DNA from: an uncultured Flavobacteriaceae bacterium
Lineage (GTDB): Bacteria; Bacteroidota; Bacteroidia; Flavobacteriales; Flavobacteriaceae
Length of the DNA stretch: 64,000 bases
Direction: 5' to 3'
NCBI GenBank assembly: GCA_947495135.1
Contig: CANLXN010000006.1
Coordinates: forward strand, 62,001-126,000
A model generated the notes under the pieces. It saw only the letters and a program-made list of their open reading frames with translations. It did not search any database and was not told the origin of the DNA. The first letter of the stretch is position 1; each line of letters starts with the position of its first letter. The translations under genes and the position numbers were made by a program. Of this stretch, positions 2,866-13,636 are shown piece by piece.

Positions 2866-2873
2866 TACCTTTG
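2866..2873 (+). promoter_or_regulatory. Bacteroidetes -7 box TACCTTTG
   Basis: Exact match to TAnnTTTG. It ends 6 nt before the ATG at 2880, so the transcript would have an almost absent leader. A TTTG at 2838-2841 is a possible -33 element, with a slightly long 24-nt spacer. The position argues that translation of the glycosyltransferase starts at 2880, not at the in-frame TTG at 2871, which lies inside the box. Confidence 0.55.
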
Positions 2874-2879
2874 CCAACA

Positions 2880-3872
2880 ATGAACGTAGCTGTTATTATC
2901 TTAAATTGGAATGGTAAAAAGCTCCTAGAGCAATTTTTGCCTTCTGTCTTGTCTTTTTCTGACGGGGCGTCTATTTATGTAGCCGATAATGCTTCTACAG
3001 ACGACAGTATTTCATTTTTAACCAAAAATTATCCAACGGTTCAAATTATTCAGAATAAACAAAATGGTGGGTACGCAAAAGGGTATAATGATGCCTTAAA
3101 ACATGTAGACGCAGATTTATTTGTTTTACTGAATAGTGATGTCGAGGTAACTCAATTTTGGCTAAATCCTGTGGTAGAGCAATTCTCCAAGGAGCCTAAT
3201 CTAGTTGCCGCTCAACCGAAAATATTGGATTACAAAAGAAAATCTCATTTTGAGTATGCAGGCGCAGCAGGAGGATTCATCGATTCTATGGGCTATCCTT
3301 ATTGTAGAGGTCGAATTTTCGATACCTTAGAAGAAGACAAAGGGCAATACAACGATATTGCAACTATCTTTTGGGCAACTGGAGCTTGCCTATTTGTGAC
3401 GAAAGAGGCTTTCATGCAGGCTCGCGGCTTTGATGAGGACTTTTTTGCGCATCAAGAGGAAATCGACTTGTGCTGGAGGCTTCAAGTTAATGGCGGTATT
3501 ATTAAATATATTGGTCATTCTACGGTTTATCACTTAGGAGGAGCTACTTTGGAGACTGTAAACCCTAAAAAAACTTTTTACAACTTCAGGAATAGTTTGT
3601 TAATTTTACTCAAAAATATTGAAGGAACAAAGGTGTATTGGATTATCTACAAAAGAATGATTTTGGATGGTATTGCTGCCTTAAAATTTCTCTTACAAGG
3701 TAAATTTAATCACTTTCTGGCCATTCTAAAAGCACATTTTAGCTTCTATCGAATGTTTCCGAAGTTTCTCAAAAAAAGGAGAAAAGTTGCCAGTGATTTT
3801 AAATATTTTAAAATTAAGTCTATTGTATGGAAATACTTTATTGCAAAAAAACGTAACTTTAACAACCTCTAA
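2880..3872 (+). CDS. family 2 glycosyltransferase
   Basis: A 330-residue GT-A fold transferase beginning VAVIILNWNGKKLL, the usual first strand of WbbL/rhamnosyltransferase-type GT2 enzymes. The nucleotide/metal motif is NSDVEV (about residue 85), preceded by ADNASTDDS (about 40). GACLFVTKEAF and FDEDFFAHQEEIDLCWRL (about 165-200) form the acceptor/catalytic region typical of these enzymes. The lysine-rich C-terminus may contact the membrane. It would transfer a nucleotide-activated sugar to a surface glycan; donor and acceptor cannot be told from sequence. It stands alone rather than in a polysaccharide cluster. ATG 2880 was preferred because the upstream TTG overlaps the promoter. Confidence 0.88.
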   Translation: MNVAVIILNWNGKKLLEQFLPSVLSFSDGASIYVADNASTDDSISFLTKNYPTVQIIQNKQNGGYAKGYNDALKHVDADLFVLLNSDVEVTQFWLNPVVEQFSKEPNLVAAQPKILDYKRKSHFEYAGAAGGFIDSMGYPYCRGRIFDTLEEDKGQYNDIATIFWATGACLFVTKEAFMQARGFDEDFFAHQEEIDLCWRLQVNGGIIKYIGHSTVYHLGGATLETVNPKKTFYNFRNSLLILLKNIEGTKVYWIIYKRMILDGIAALKFLLQGKFNHFLAILKAHFSFYRMFPKFLKKRRKVASDFKYFKIKSIVWKYFIAKKRNFNNL

Positions 3873-3952
3873 TAAACTTAACCTAAAAAAATGTTAACTA
3901 GTGTTCTGCTAGCTATTGAATTTTTAATTTTACCAACAATTTAAACTTAACA

Positions 3953-4819
3953 ATGATGAAGAATTTCTTATTATTAGTGGTTACATGTAGCTTACTTATG
4001 ACCTCTTGCGTTTCAAAGAAGAAATACGCAGCGCTTGAGTCAAAACAAAAAACAACTCAAGATTTATTGAATACGGCAACCGTAAAGTTAAATGCCTGCG
4101 AAGCGGATAAAGCAGCTGCTTCAGCTCGTATTACTTCCTTAGAAGAAAGAATTGCGGAGCTCCGTAAAGATAAAGATGAGTTAATTCAAAGTTCAAAGTC
4201 TCTTACTATTCTTACCCAGCAAGGTGCTACAAATCTTGAAAAATCATTGGAAAGCTTAAAAGAGAAAGACTTAAAAATAAGTCGTTTGCAAGATGCACTT
4301 ACTAAAAAGGATAGTGTAACACTTGCTTTAGTAACAAGTTTGAAAAAAGATGTAGGTTTAAACGACGAAGATATCGAAATCAATGTTGAAAAAGGAGTTG
4401 TTTTTATCTCGTTAAGCGACAAGGTTTTATTTAAGAGCGGAAGCTATAATCTTTCTTCAAGAGCCAATGAAATCTTAGGGAAAGTAGCAACAGTTATTAA
4501 TGGAAAGCCAGATTTTGAGGCGTTAGTTGAAGGACATACCGATGACGTGCCTTACAGCAGTGGTGTATTAATTGACAACTGGGATTTAAGTGCAAAACGA
4601 TCTGCAGCGGTAGTTAGAAAATTAATGGATTTAGGTGCAAATCCAGCTCAGCTAATAGCAGCGGGACGTAGCTCTTATGTACCATTGGTGTCAAACGATA
4701 CAGCCGAAAATCGCGCAACCAACCGTAGAACAAAAATATACATTCTACCTAAAATCGATCAATTCTACGAAATGATCGAAACGGAGATGAAAAATTTAGA
4801 AGCAGGCGGCGGACAATAA
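3953..4819 (+). CDS. OmpA/Pal-like peptidoglycan-binding lipoprotein
   Basis: A 288-residue lipoprotein: signal peptide ending in LLMTSC (Cys about 19), a long coiled-coil region (about 25-120) and a C-terminal OmpA-like domain (about 145-265). That domain contains VEGHTDDVPY, NWDLSAKRSAAVVRKL and NRATNRRTKIYILP, which include the Asp and Arg residues that hold diaminopimelate in OmpA/Pal proteins. It should tether the outer membrane to peptidoglycan, with the coiled coil as a periplasmic spacer. Two adjacent ATGs (3953, 3956) are possible starts. A strong hairpin terminator follows at 4841. Confidence 0.88.
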   Translation: MMKNFLLLVVTCSLLMTSCVSKKKYAALESKQKTTQDLLNTATVKLNACEADKAAASARITSLEERIAELRKDKDELIQSSKSLTILTQQGATNLEKSLESLKEKDLKISRLQDALTKKDSVTLALVTSLKKDVGLNDEDIEINVEKGVVFISLSDKVLFKSGSYNLSSRANEILGKVATVINGKPDFEALVEGHTDDVPYSSGVLIDNWDLSAKRSAAVVRKLMDLGANPAQLIAAGRSSYVPLVSNDTAENRATNRRTKIYILPKIDQFYEMIETEMKNLEAGGGQ

Positions 4820-8898: not shown

Positions 8899-9408
8899 TT
8901 AGTAAGGCCAATTAACATGTATTGGTTTGGACATCCATGGCAACTTTATAATTGAAAAGGAAAAAGGAGACTTGCGAATCAATAAATCGTAGCTTCTTTT
9001 TTCGACTGTAAGTTCCCAGCGGTCCTCTACTTCAGACAGAACACCTTCTCTCACAAACCAATTACCACGAAAACCAGCAATAGAAGAATCGCCTATATCG
9101 CTCCAATGGCCTATCATGGCTTGTAGTAATCCTTCTATTAATTCCTCCTGATCTGGTTCCATTTCTATACCACTGCTAACAGATTCAGTTGGAGGCAAAC
9201 CACAGATCACTTTATTTAGAGTTAAATAAAGCTCTTCGGTATAGCTTTGTCCCGAGACAGCATATTGTAAATAATGAACAGCGCGGTGCTGCGCTACAAT
9301 ATCATTAAAAGCACCGTCTAAAGTAAGTCCAAGCCTTTCAAATAATAGAGGAATATAATTGTTCATTAAAACTAATCCAGCATTTCTAATGGGAATTCGT
9401 TCGTTCAT
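8899..9408 (-). CDS. contractile injection system tape-measure domain protein (short)
   Basis: A 169-residue protein that matches, nearly end to end, the conserved C-terminal domain of extracellular contractile injection system tape-measure proteins: IRNAGLVLMNNYIPLLFERL, AVHYLQYAVSG, LNKVICGLP, EGLLQAMIGHW and FSIIKLPWMSKPIHVNW. Complete tape-measure proteins are much longer, and no such extension is encoded upstream. It is the last gene of the minus-strand tail operon, 52 nt after the second tube gene. It could cap or initiate a short tube, or be a remnant; the intact frame and conserved ends argue against simple decay. Confidence 0.82.
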   Translation of the reverse strand: MNERIPIRNAGLVLMNNYIPLLFERLGLTLDGAFNDIVAQHRAVHYLQYAVSGQSYTEELYLTLNKVICGLPPTESVSSGIEMEPDQEELIEGLLQAMIGHWSDIGDSSIAGFRGNWFVREGVLSEVEDRWELTVEKRSYDLLIRKSPFSFSIIKLPWMSKPIHVNWPY

Positions 9409-9460
9409 ACGTATTAATTTTTAATGATGCCTGATTTCATATTCGGTTATTCCAATAATT

Positions 9461-9940
9461 CTATTCGCTATCAAACAAATCTGAAAACGACGGGTCTGAA
9501 GAAATTTCAAAATAACTATATGCAAATTCTAGCTCTTCCATAATGAGGTAGCCTTCATCTGATGTCAATTCTGAAACGGAATATTTAACTGGATAGGCAT
9601 TGAAAAACTTCCAACTCATTTGGATCTGACCTTCAGCATCTAATAAATTCACGCTCACCTCTTCTGTCTTTATTGGTGATGCCAGTCCATCATTTAAAGT
9701 GCTAACACACCAGTTCATTAGTGTAGAGGACTTTGATATCAATCCCCGTTTCAGCACTAAATTTTGATTATTTCCAGTAGTTGGCAAGCGATATTTAAAA
9801 CGGTTTTCATCACCTCCTACCACCACTTCTTCTAAACTAACCACCTTGGAGATCCCGGAAACTTCCTGAAAGGCTGTGAGCTCTCCTTTAACCATAAGCT
9901 CAAAATAAAAACCAACAGGATAATTGTCTTGCTTAACCAT
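9461..9940 (-). CDS. T4 gp19-like tail tube protein (second copy)
   Basis: A 159-residue phage-tail-type tube protein. NYPVGFYFELMVKGELTAFQ, the EVSGI motif and KRGL are typical of the gp19/afp tube family, which forms stacked rings inside a sheath. It overlaps the preceding tube gene by 8 bp, indicating translational coupling. The C-terminus has an acidic tail (SDPSFSDLFDSE) absent from the first copy. In known injection systems, paralogous tube proteins form the bulk tube and the ring next to the baseplate. Confidence 0.88.
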   Translation of the reverse strand: MVKQDNYPVGFYFELMVKGELTAFQEVSGISKVVSLEEVVVGGDENRFKYRLPTTGNNQNLVLKRGLISKSSTLMNWCVSTLNDGLASPIKTEEVSVNLLDAEGQIQMSWKFFNAYPVKYSVSELTSDEGYLIMEELEFAYSYFEISSDPSFSDLFDSE

Positions 9941-10394
9941 TGTTAATAGTTAATTGTTCATACGCTATTTCCAAGGTATCTATCGCTACTTCGTTTCCAT
10001 CCGACTTGAGATCGGTACTGGTAATTTTTGTTGGCCAGGCATTAGGAAGTGTCCACTGCATAGTAACACTCCCTCCTTCGTCCATTAGCTTAATGAGCAC
10101 TGTGCGCCTTTTAATGGTATTCATGGTGATTTGCTGATACCAGTCCCAAAAACGGTTATCCTTTACAAAAACTCCACGTTTCATTGTTATAGTACCGTAT
10201 TTTACAATACCAGGCAATTTCTCTACCGAAAAAAGCTCACTATTGCCGTTTCTGTATTCAATTATTTGGTTTTCAACATCCATTCCTGACACTTCTTGAA
10301 ATACGATTCCTTGTAAATCGGTTCCAAAATCAACCTCAAATCTAAATTTTGGCATTGGCCATGTACCGCCTTGCCTACTTCCGTCATATGCCAT
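9933..10394 (-). CDS. T4 gp19-like tail tube protein (first copy)
   Basis: A 153-residue tube protein with PMPKFRFEVDFG, FQEVSGMDVE and MKRGVFVKDNRFWDW, the standard family hallmarks. It follows the sheath gene by 38 nt and overlaps the second tube gene by 8 bp. The gene order sheath-tube-tube matches the start of extracellular contractile injection system clusters such as Afp and PVC. It probably forms the main tube. Confidence 0.9.
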   Translation of the reverse strand: MAYDGSRQGGTWPMPKFRFEVDFGTDLQGIVFQEVSGMDVENQIIEYRNGNSELFSVEKLPGIVKYGTITMKRGVFVKDNRFWDWYQQITMNTIKRRTVLIKLMDEGGSVTMQWTLPNAWPTKITSTDLKSDGNEVAIDTLEIAYEQLTINNG

Positions 10395-10432
10395 AGTTTA
10401 GTCTCTTTTGTGTTAATCAATGTAAGTTATTA

Positions 10433-12010
10433 TTAGCTTTTTGCCATTTGCTGAACAAAGGACAGTACTATAAACTCTGCAGGGCGGACTACAGCTACCT
10501 TTACACTTATCCGCATAAAGCCATTAAGTAAATCCTCTGCAGTCATGGTCGTTCCTAATCCACACTTCACGTCAAACGCATCCTCAGCAGATGCTCCTTG
10601 CAGTCCTCCTTCTTTCCAAATAGTGTTAAGAAAACTACCAATCATACTTTTTACTGCCTCCCAAGTGTTTTTATCGTTTGGCTCAAACACATAAGCCTGA
10701 GCTGCCAGTTTACAAGACTGTTCAAGCATGATCATAGTTCGTCTAACCGAAAGATATCTCCAATCCAGACTATTTCCGTCTAAAGTTCGTGCTCCCCAGA
10801 CCAAAATCCCTAATCCGTTAAAAAAACGAATAGCATTTATAGATTTACCATACACCGCATCCATATTCAAGTCTTCTTGTTGGTCTGAAGACAATTTAAT
10901 AGGAAGGCTAGAAGCGCTTACAATGGAGGTATTTGCCGGTGCCTGCCAAACTCCCTGCTGTGCATCGATTAGAGTCATAACTCCAGCCATCCCTCCGCTG
11001 GGTGGAAGCATATTTACCGCTTTTAAAATATGTTTCAGAATTGAACCATACACGGGGCTCGAATTAACTAATGCCGTATTGTATTGAGCAGTAGTTAATC
11101 CATCTCCTATAGGGTTTTCAATGGTGTATAGAACAAGAGCTGCATCTGGATTTGGATTTGTTGAAGGATTTAATAGCGGAGTTAGCTGCTTTAGGTCTCC
11201 TCCAAATAAATTAGTATAATCTATATCCGCGTCCTGTGTTATAGTAGTTTCAATAAACGGATAATATGCCGTCCCATACATGAGTCCGACCTCGCCTGTA
11301 TTCTTTCTAAATGTATTGATATCGTTGGTATACAATATGGGATCTGGATTTCTAGCCCCAATAATATCAAAAATGCTAATTGCCGTTTGCATTTCCGAAT
11401 TTTGAAGTAACATGCTTTGCATTAATGCCCCGTTATCCGCAACAGATAATAGAGTTGCCTCTGGACAGATGTACATGGTTGGCTCCTGTTCATTCTTGAG
11501 CAGTGCTAAGCCATTTTGAAGTTCACTAAGTTTTACGTTGGGATTTACAATTTGACCTGCAGGTTCCATAGGTGAATTAGACGGTGTTCCATAGGTTCCT
11601 ACCGAAACAATGTATGCATCTCCTCCTCCGTTTTCATAAAATAATTTTATACTGTTGTACAAATAATAAATAGTATGGGCATCTGGAACAATTGAATAAT
11701 AAACGCTTTCAATTTGCACGTAGTCACCGGCTGTTGGCTCACTTTTTTGCTTAACCAAATAGTAGGATGGTTTATATTGTTTTGCCGGAGCGTTTGGTGG
11801 CGGTGCATCGGGATAACAGAAGATGGCCTGAAATTCTGCAAATGAAGTCACTTTCTGGGGTACATTGGTATACGATTTCCCTTCGCACGAAGCTTGGGGT
11901 GTATATCCAATAAACGCAGGAACCGCAGTAGCTACTGGCACAACAGTGTTCGGAACAGTATGTTGTTCATTAATATAAACGCCTGGAGTATTGATATTGG
12001 ATTCCATCAT
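10433..12010 (-). CDS. contractile tail sheath protein
   Basis: A 525-residue sheath protein. The N-terminus has TPGVYINEQ (about 9-17), the segment that links neighbouring sheath subunits, followed by VPAFIGYTP. The C-terminal domain (about 395-525) is the most conserved: FFNGLGILVWGARTL, LDWRYLSVRRTMIMLEQS and VKVAVVRPAEFIVLSF. The central part is variable, as in other sheaths. It is a phage/Afp-type sheath, not the TssB/TssC pair of Bacteroidetes type VI secretion. It is followed by two tube genes in one operon. Two adjacent ATG starts (12010, 12007) are possible. Confidence 0.93.
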   Translation of the reverse strand: MMESNINTPGVYINEQHTVPNTVVPVATAVPAFIGYTPQASCEGKSYTNVPQKVTSFAEFQAIFCYPDAPPPNAPAKQYKPSYYLVKQKSEPTAGDYVQIESVYYSIVPDAHTIYYLYNSIKLFYENGGGDAYIVSVGTYGTPSNSPMEPAGQIVNPNVKLSELQNGLALLKNEQEPTMYICPEATLLSVADNGALMQSMLLQNSEMQTAISIFDIIGARNPDPILYTNDINTFRKNTGEVGLMYGTAYYPFIETTITQDADIDYTNLFGGDLKQLTPLLNPSTNPNPDAALVLYTIENPIGDGLTTAQYNTALVNSSPVYGSILKHILKAVNMLPPSGGMAGVMTLIDAQQGVWQAPANTSIVSASSLPIKLSSDQQEDLNMDAVYGKSINAIRFFNGLGILVWGARTLDGNSLDWRYLSVRRTMIMLEQSCKLAAQAYVFEPNDKNTWEAVKSMIGSFLNTIWKEGGLQGASAEDAFDVKCGLGTTMTAEDLLNGFMRISVKVAVVRPAEFIVLSFVQQMAKS

Positions 12011-12036
12011 AGGTTCGTGATTTTTTTTATTAGTAC

Positions 12037-12879
12037 TTATATATAGATATACATGTTAGATGTCATTATTTGACGTCCTCCTACTTCTTTTACTATAATA
12101 TCCTCTACACTAGGGTTAGGTAATTTCACAATGGTTTTAAATATACTTTCAAACCTCATATCAAGAAGATCACCTGGGTGCTTAATAAGACGAAAATTTG
12201 CTTTAGGAGTTTCGCTCAAATGAATTAAGACATCTTCTGTAGTAAAAAGCAATGCATTTTGTCCATTTCCAATTACTACTTCGGTGGGGCGTTCCAAAAT
12301 TAAATTCGTACCTCTATCGGAAACCACTACTAGATCTAAAAGTTTGGTTTGGGCGTTATTTATTATGAAATAGTTCCATTGGATAGAGCGGGCTTCTAAT
12401 CTCATGTGAAGTAAAATTTCTCTACCGTGCGATCCCATTCTTATTAAATCATCAAAAAATAGTTGAAGAGACATTAAATTAGGTAAATGCCCTGGGCTAG
12501 TGAAACTCCCCATTAGTTCTGTATAATCTGTTCTTTCGATGTTTAGCTCAGAGTTACTACTAAACGAAAGTCCCACTTCCCTATCCAATGGCAAGTTGGT
12601 AACATTGTAAAAAAAAGTGTCAGTGCTACTAATATTAAAATCGAAATAAGTGAGTTCTTGAAGCTCGCTCAGATGTCGAATATATTCGGAAGGAGTCTTT
12701 TTTGTATTCGCAAAAAGGTCGAAACCATAATCAGACATTTGAAGTATAAAACCAAATTTTTTCCGTAATGCAAGGGTGTTTTCACCAGGAGTAATCTCTA
12801 AATTTTTACACCTACCAAATTCAAAATAAGTATGAAAGCATTTTAAACTAACTATTTTGATATAACTATCCATAAGCAT
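12037..12879 (-). CDS. unrecognised protein, first gene of the sheath operon
   Basis: A 280-residue protein without signal peptide or transmembrane helix. I do not recognise a family. It is rich in predicted beta strands (IVSLKCFHTYFEFGR, FGFILQMSDYGFDLF, LTYFDFNISSTDTFFYNVTN) and ends IMTSNMYIYI. It lies 26 nt before the sheath gene on the same strand, so it is almost certainly part of the tail operon and could be a sheath- or tube-associated structural or assembly factor (inference from position). ATG 12873 (MDSYIK) is an alternative start. Confidence 0.7.
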   Translation of the reverse strand: MLMDSYIKIVSLKCFHTYFEFGRCKNLEITPGENTLALRKKFGFILQMSDYGFDLFANTKKTPSEYIRHLSELQELTYFDFNISSTDTFFYNVTNLPLDREVGLSFSSNSELNIERTDYTELMGSFTSPGHLPNLMSLQLFFDDLIRMGSHGREILLHMRLEARSIQWNYFIINNAQTKLLDLVVVSDRGTNLILERPTEVVIGNGQNALLFTTEDVLIHLSETPKANFRLIKHPGDLLDMRFESIFKTIVKLPNPSVEDIIVKEVGGRQIMTSNMYIYI

Positions 12880-13018: not shown

Positions 13019-13636
13019 TTAAATTTCCAAACTCCCTTTACCAGCGCGAATAAGTTGAGGAACATCTCCAGTTAAATCGATTACTGTAGAGGCTATATTT
13101 CCTCCATAACCACCGTCCACTACAATCTCTACTAAATGTGACCATTTTTCTAATATAAGCTCTGGATCTGTAGTGTATTCTATCACCTCATCCTCATCCT
13201 TAATAGACATAGAAACAATGGGATTACCAAGTGCTCTAACGATGGCTTGAGCTATGGCGTTATCTGGAACTCGTATTCCTACCTCTTTCTTCTTTTTAAA
13301 TACAGAAGGCAGATTATTATTCCCGGGAAGGATAAAAGTATAGGGTCCAGGCAGAGCCCGTTTTAATAATTTAAAAGTGCTAGAGTCTATTTGCTTTACA
13401 TAATCGCTCAAGTTGCTAAGATCTTCGCAAATGAAGGAGAAATTAGCCTTCTCTAGTTTTACTCCTTTTATCTTTGCAATGCGTTCCAATGCTCCCTTAT
13501 GAGTGATATCACATCCAAGTGCGTAAACGGTATCGCTTGGATAGATCACCAAACCTCCAGATTTGAGCACATCCACTACCTTTTTCACCTCTTTGGGATT
13601 GGGGTTGTCTTCGTATAATTTTATTAATTGAGCCAT
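13019..13636 (-). CDS. Sua5/YciO/YrdC family protein
   Basis: A 205-residue protein with the YrdC-fold signature GGLVIYPSDTVYALGCD (about 27-43), ALPGPYTFILP and IGIRVPD-like VGIRVPDN. The family includes TsaC/Sua5, which makes threonylcarbamoyl-AMP for the t6A37 modification of tRNA, and the related YciO. The basic segment GVKLEKANFSFI and the length (206 in E. coli YciO) fit the YciO side better. It sits 140 bp upstream-side of the sheath operon on the same strand but has no functional link to it. Confidence 0.85.
   Translation of the reverse strand: MAQLIKLYEDNPNPKEVKKVVDVLKSGGLVIYPSDTVYALGCDITHKGALERIAKIKGVKLEKANFSFICEDLSNLSDYVKQIDSSTFKLLKRALPGPYTFILPGNNNLPSVFKKKKEVGIRVPDNAIAQAIVRALGNPIVSMSIKDEDEVIEYTTDPELILEKWSHLVEIVVDGGYGGNIASTVIDLTGDVPQLIRAGKGSLEI

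Follow-up and report, generated by a model that had tools for sequence, protein, structure and literature searches.

Among the extracellular contractile injection systems (eCIS) described so far, AlgoCIS of Algoriphagus machipongonensis has cap adaptor, sheath and tube sequences related to those of the locus analysed here, a five-gene operon on the minus strand at positions 8899 to 12879 of a 64-kb stretch of DNA (the window) from an uncultured Flavobacteriaceae bacterium. AlgoCIS forms a complete particle that includes baseplate and cargo; its cap adaptor holds the distal layer of the sheath in place, and particles become aberrant when the adaptor is deleted (PMC8894135). Unlike AlgoCIS, the window operon encodes no cap protein, hub, spike, PAAR, gp25, baseplate or ATPase, and its tape measure lacks the N-terminal body. 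The closest solved structures are those of "SalCis" (PDB 9r9h/9r9i/9r9n/9rce), which match the window sheath with an E-value of 1e-107, the tube with 1.5e-52 and the cap adaptor, through the SalCis cap protein, with 2.5e-20; no paper on this system was found in the open-licence literature searched.

Partial contractile gene sets apart from full clusters are likewise known as orphan islands of the type VI secretion system (hcp, vgrG, PAAR; PMC13098142), but these retain tube and spike parts, while reduced eCIS loci retain the shell. Sheath protein alone forms stable tubes in phage polysheaths (gp053 of FV3, PMC6357053); gp053, however, is a recombinant phage protein and not a gene that a bacterium keeps for tubes. 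In PVC, single deletion of a baseplate, tube or sheath-initiator gene abolishes particles (PMC12210884). One survey, which set a threshold of ten core genes, reported co-occurrence of spike (Afp8) and baseplate (Afp11) at 98.7% of its loci (PMC8213781), and another required baseplate, tube and sheath-initiator classes (PMC12210884). Reduced loci were therefore excluded by design. In the open-licence literature searched we recognised no description of orphan eCIS sheaths or solo tape-measure domains that are kept by selection.

All five open reading frames (ORFs) of the operon are open, and the spacing from 8899 to 12879 is 52 bp, an 8-bp overlap, 38 bp and 26 bp, in line with the five intact, tightly spaced genes that an earlier note on this DNA had reported. 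That note also named a sheath, two tubes and a short tape-measure domain, which Pfam confirms; its fifth, "unrecognised" protein is a cap adaptor of the Alg16B/SalCis16b type. This 280-aa product of the first operon gene (12037..12879) gave no Pfam, PHROG or NCBIfam match at E 1, but a profile built from 12 homologues matched the PDB chains 9r9n ("SalCis16b - cap", 2.5e-20), 7adz (a cap adaptor, 5.4e-11) and 7b5i (All3326, 1.1e-9), and homologues in complete systems are placed between the cap gene and the sheath. The 525-aa sheath (10433..12010) is full length, with a Phage_sheath_1C match of 50 bits (over the cut-off), a sub-cut-off Phage_sheath_1 match and PDB matches to 9r9h (1e-107) and 7adz (4e-82). 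Downstream lie the 153-aa inner tube protein (9933..10394; Phage_T4_gp19 145 bits, 9r9h_B 1.5e-52, NCBIfam CIS1 and CIS5 both under cut-off), Afp1-like by gene order, and a second tube protein of 159 aa (9461..9940; Phage_T4_gp19 103 bits, NCBIfam CIS5 6e-17, under cut-off), the tube initiator, which is Afp5-like by order and occupies the same position as in complete systems. The last gene (8899..9408) encodes 169 aa that match CIS_TMP with 198 bits; since the match is limited to profile positions 299-463 of 463, only the C-terminal part of a tape-measure protein is present. An AlphaFold2 model of this solo domain (pLDDT 95, pTM 0.90) predicts that it folds alone.

Custom hidden Markov models for eCIS components found no further component in the 64 kb: no DUF4255/Pvc16_N cap, which leaves the adaptor half of the cap module, no spike (Afp8), PAAR, gp25 or baseplate (Afp11) and no eCIS AAA+ ATPase, and the tape measure is reduced to the C-terminal third of CIS_TMP. 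The absence of spike, PAAR, gp25, baseplate and ATPase claimed in the earlier note thus held throughout the window, and for gp25, the sheath initiator or wedge protein, on the whole contig (C6; G, L and C numbers denote genomes, loci and contigs of this analysis, and G000 is the window's own genome). The operon has an eCIS-type sheath and inner tube, but five genes compared with the ten-core-gene threshold of one survey (PMC8213781). Since several eCIS-defining parts were searched for and not found, we do not class it as an eCIS but as a derivative of one. A contractile phage or prophage origin is not supported by the sheath: the best phage match listed for the sheath shows 34% identity over 37% of the query and none covers 80%, compared with 1e-107 for a contractile injection system sheath. 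Nor was a two-part TssB/TssC sheath of a type VI secretion system found, as none of the five proteins falls into such a Pfam family and the sheath is of the Phage_sheath_1C type.

The window operon derives from a complete eCIS

We compared the locus with eight other genomes of the same genus (G001-G008). In G003 a complete eCIS of the window lineage adjoins Sua5. Its cluster comprises a 293-aa regulator (luxR-type Pfam match under cut-off), a Pvc16_N cap, the adaptor, the sheath and two tubes, followed by a CIS_tube hub, spike, gp25, Afp11-like and Afp12-like proteins, a 1346-aa tape measure and a 460-aa AAA ATPase. The G003 sheath is 73% identical to that of the window, and the Afp11-like protein has a Baseplate_J match under cut-off and a BLAST match to the baseplate protein on contig C11 of G000. 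No PAAR ORF was seen in the G003 cluster; one is present in G005, which has a cluster as in G003. The G005 contig, 13 kb in length, stops at the regulator and therefore does not show the Sua5 neighbour.

In the window the Sua5/YciO/YrdC gene (13019..13636, minus strand; Pfam PF01300) lies outside the operon, 139 bp upstream, and Sua5 adjoins the site also in G002, G007, G008 and in two genomes of another genus, G263 (Halomarinibacterium sedimenti) and G415, which carry reduced sets beside it. Past the G003 cluster, on the side away from Sua5, come two genes (330 and about 290 aa) that border the site in G002, G263 and G415 too. BLAST places these far-flank anchors in the window at 2871..4819 on the plus strand (333 and 288 aa; 67-71% and 80-82% identity), with three additional genes between them and the operon. 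Because flanks are shared on both sides, the window operon occupies the same two-sided site as the G003 eCIS, and because this genome of the same genus has the full set between identical flanking genes, we conclude that the operon derives from a complete eCIS. Compared with G003, it retains four trunk genes and, of the tape measure, the final 169 residues, which strongly supports the "stripped-down" character proposed in the earlier note. Complete eCIS of the lineage (G003; Kordia, Dokdonia, Aquimarina, Flavobacterium, Pedobacter and others) are direct relatives with the four trunk genes in equal order, but unlike the window operon they keep hub, spike, gp25 and baseplate genes, and G003 also the full tape measure and ATPase. 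Deletion at the ancestral Sua5 site has removed the cap protein, the adjacent regulator, hub, spike, PAAR, gp25, baseplate and ATPase together with most of the tape measure, and the remaining operon alone is unable to inject.

At the same site, G002, G007 and G008 hold only an ORF of 136, 127 and 133 aa, respectively (L035:8667-9077, L036:10525-10908, L037:9731-10132), which represents the sheath C-terminal domain without the N-terminal arm ("mini-sheath"). All three are open, with Phage_sheath_1C detected by Pfam in each, and are 64-69% identical to the first. The mini-sheath starts 1 bp (G002) and 6 bp (G008) past the Sua5 stop codon, from which we infer that it is probably made constitutively there; in G007 another gene intervenes. 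Each of the three genomes has another sheath gene, 47-52% identical to the mini-sheath in that region. G001 has another sheath only, and in G004 and G006 no match was obtained. The comparison of related genomes thus revealed no premature stops in the sheath, and a truncated but open sheath domain in three relatives. That recent decay is not visible, as the earlier note put it, is true of the window copy, although this copy may itself be decaying.

Recurrence of reduced loci

Named genomes were scanned with a 14-sequence alignment of the lineage; the scan yielded at least 80 loci and is not a census. The lineage itself (at least 52% identity) is represented by 44 loci, L136-L179. Among the matches listed, 20 of these are reduced, 23 complete and one (L141) unclassified, which makes 20 of the 43 classifiable loci reduced; L142, L155 and L178 were scored reduced despite a nearby contig end, and L136 and L166 complete on a partial contig. 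The Massilia locus (L162) is complete. Lone sheaths were found in two Flavobacterium genomes, Polaribacter, Roseivirga, Aequorivita, Algoriphagus, a SAR324 bin and a Lysobacteraceae genome. Further reduced forms consist of sheath plus tube, or of sheath, tube and solo tape measure (Pedobacter; with cap adaptor in Halomarinibacterium), and in Taibaiella and Roseivirga seohaensis the solo tape measure lies ahead of the sheath. A maximum-likelihood tree of 64 rows (35 complete, 28 reduced, one unclassified; L150 and G263 are one genome and share a row) requires 14 changes between these labels, with 13-15 over bootstraps and at least 7 forced by starred branches. Reduction to leftover sets is therefore recurrent. 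The lineage sheaths without eCIS neighbours in the SAR324 bin (L169:9935-11581, with an additional LysM match on the opposite strand) and in the Lysobacteraceae genome (L171) lie outside Bacteroidota, and both genomes have gp25 matches.

Solo tape-measure domains share one common boundary in 11 loci including the window (169-184 aa), and this boundary was found in at least three places of the tree. In this comparison eleven duplicate loci were omitted, and full-length values are lower bounds where the locus ends. Solo tape-measure domain genes without eCIS neighbours were also seen in three genera (L118:9477-10010, L120:9387-9896, L121:9368-9901).

Leftover sets of other composition were observed as well. 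Aequorivita antarctica carries a reduced eCIS of a different lineage (L217:6761-13152) with a DUF4255 cap, tube1, tube2, spike, solo tape-measure domain, AAA ATPase and a further tube gene, with no gp25 or baseplate within 20 kb. G374 and G198, of one genus, have a mini-cluster of AAA ATPase, tube2 and tube1 (L219:8174-10430, L222:8532-10752), with flanking genes alike in size and order and the sheath genes far off. Frames of 214 and 232 aa (G433:C11:270957-271304, G076:C12:295633-295962) match only the first approximately 115 residues of an eCIS spike and are possibly another leftover domain.

Purifying selection on a lone sheath in Aequorivita

In the Aequorivita genus, a lone sheath is present in 8 of 28 genomes, always open, 519-522 aa long and at one site, with the order GNAT acetyltransferase, sheath, adk, obg (one contig is only 5 kb). 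The ratio of nonsynonymous to synonymous substitution rates (dN/dS) was 0.080-0.171 with a median of 0.124 (28 pairs, dS 0.73-1.74), compared with 0.115 for the neighbouring GNAT gene (25 of 28 pairs unsaturated), 0.020 for obg and 0.026 for the other sheath type of the genus (479 aa, 12 loci; 41 of 66 pairs unsaturated). In a neutral simulation of the lone sheath, 0.1 substitutions per site introduced a mean of 6.5 stops and left none of 400 copies open. These data demonstrate that the Aequorivita lone sheath is maintained by purifying selection; the constraint is weaker than on the other sheath type, yet far from absent.

The mini-sheath is open in three species in which third positions differ at 54-60% of codons (dS is saturated in most pairs), and 0.75% of its copies stay open under neutral simulation at 0.5 per site. 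In the window sheath, 7 of the 169 columns that are invariant in 28 complete systems are changed, compared with 116 of 354 other columns; part of the branch on which it diverged may predate the deletion. At 144 of 175 near-invariant sheath columns, the conserved residue is found in 85% or more of 26 reduced copies, and reduced full-length sheaths retain both chain ends and most invariant residues. Mini-sheath rows were omitted from the invariant-column count, being unreliable beyond the C-terminal domain.

Possible roles of the remnant

We read the window operon as an eCIS trunk remnant that most likely forms a baseplate-free, non-injecting sheath polymer, and give this reading about an even chance; it is the one we prefer, and it comes close to the tubular organelle suggested in the earlier note. 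The sheath would still polymerise into a tubule without baseplate in the cell that makes it. The tube could supply a core and the cap adaptor an end piece, both optional, while the tape-measure domain would be a putative nucleating or capping factor, and the tubule might serve as scaffold or structural fibre, not as injector. Since reduced sheaths retain both ends and most invariant residues, such a tubule would be the simplest activity to have been kept. Reduced sets of sheath, tube or tape-measure C-terminal domain represent a recurrent end state, at least one kind of which is under purifying selection. As a lone sheath is kept intact by selection in one genus, some part of the syringe probably serves another purpose too.

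Several observations weigh against this reading, and some of them fit a slow loss of the eCIS in which large deletions came first and the remaining genes, those of the window operon included, are not yet broken. Reduced sheaths evolve faster than complete ones (median terminal branch 0.334 in 27 rows versus 0.127 in 29 rows, p 1e-7), and a dN/dS of 0.124 for the lone sheath against 0.026 for the other sheath type indicates relaxed constraint. The retained sets vary highly, from the sheath only to tubes plus tape measure without sheath (G236) and to the sheath C-terminal domain (G002, G007, G008), and such widely differing sets fit poorly with one common assembly. Neither the mini-sheath nor the set of G236, whose locus belongs to another lineage, could form a sheath, so that more than one fate of leftover parts is likely. 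In G284, of the Aequorivita genus, the second tube gene (G284:C1:546446-546853) contains an in-frame TGA beside an intact tube1, with the lone sheath open, and in G152 a tape-measure fragment is riddled with stops. Frames of 283 aa (G437) and 288 aa (G434) may blur the size gap of the tape-measure domains. Only one genome is known to have the window arrangement, and the selection signal comes from Aequorivita, not from the window copy. Slow loss would nevertheless have to accommodate the lone sheath of Aequorivita, open at one site in 8 genomes under low dN/dS, the open mini-sheaths of three species, the few changed invariant columns of the window sheath and the one boundary common to 11 solo tape-measure domains, and we regard it as a serious but improbable account.

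The sheath, tubes and cap adaptor could also be trunk subunits, spare or alternative, for another contractile system encoded in the genome, on whose baseplate they would assemble, and the earlier note had considered baseplate parts encoded elsewhere. The search of the whole G000 genome for missing components, which that note had proposed, returned gp25 and spike matches on contigs C11 and C5 only. The eCIS on C11 looks full and belongs to a different lineage, with Pvc16_N cap, sheath, CIS_tube/LysM, spike, PAAR, Baseplate_J, CIS_TMP (514 aa) and AAA ATPase confirmed by Pfam, and with gp25, tubes and a second sheath. A separate region on C5 (G000:C5:221518-238445, partly L040) holds one gp25-like and two spike-like genes and, read from its ORF content, is probably a type VI secretion system. 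Elsewhere in their genomes, G002, G007, G008, G225, G309, G415 and G453 also have gp25, and in several reduced-module genomes tube, spike or ATPase genes persist away from the reduced locus.

At a threshold of E 1e-3, however, gp25 was unmatched in 17 of 35 distinct reduced-module genomes (6 of 13, 7 of 17 and 4 of 5 in three sets; the identical assemblies G437/G444 and G438/G456 were each counted once), among which G459 is 69% complete and the set of 7 comes without completeness values; besides these 17, G437/G444 has a gp25 match only under the family cut-off. Spike was unmatched at the same threshold in 11 of 23 genomes searched, and in Flavobacterium NRK1, Polaribacter Hel1_85, F. rakeshii and R. 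seohaensis neither tube nor gp25 was found. A borrowed baseplate is thus not the general answer, although use of baseplate parts in trans is possible for G000 itself. There, the two C11 sheaths are only 37% identical to the window sheath over its length (33-50% by segment), the C11 spike, the G000 spike nearest to the window lineage, reaches 40% identity, and the C11 system has its own sheaths and tubes. We therefore judge this explanation unlikely. In the Aequorivita genus, gp25 was found in 5 of 6 tested genomes with the 479-aa sheath type and not in G448, where such a sheath lies at G448:C22:84971-86377; full-length spike genes occur in two further genomes without gp25 (G460:C35:45073-46824, G463:C47:13617-15380).

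About equally unlikely is that leftover trunk proteins act as dead subunits which poison or regulate another contractile tail, that of an own eCIS or of an infecting myophage, with the mini-sheath as chain terminator: the mini-sheath has the C-terminal domain without the N-terminal arm, is probably constitutive in G002 and G008, and shares its three genomes with another sheath and a gp25, but the 17 genomes without gp25 match would often have no own contractile system to regulate, phage sheaths are distant (at best 34% identity over 37% of the query among the matches listed), and a full-length sheath with both arms makes no obvious terminator.

Returning to the sheath polymer, its extension to the phylum is tentative: Bacteroidota may repeatedly turn eCIS loci into an internal sheath tubule with the tape-measure C-terminal domain as conserved helper, which surveys that demand baseplate genes would miss, but we hold this to be less likely than not to apply so broadly. 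Contractile injection systems are regarded as machines that work whole or not at all, and the two surveys (PMC8213781, PMC12210884) discard loci that lack baseplate, tube or sheath-initiator genes. Among the matches listed, one sheath lineage has 20 of its 43 classifiable members in loci that are unable to make a particle alone, and in one genus such a sheath is under purifying selection in eight genomes. This leaves two possibilities: a second function of the sheath in bacteria, or decay of contractile machines via a stable, selected intermediate.

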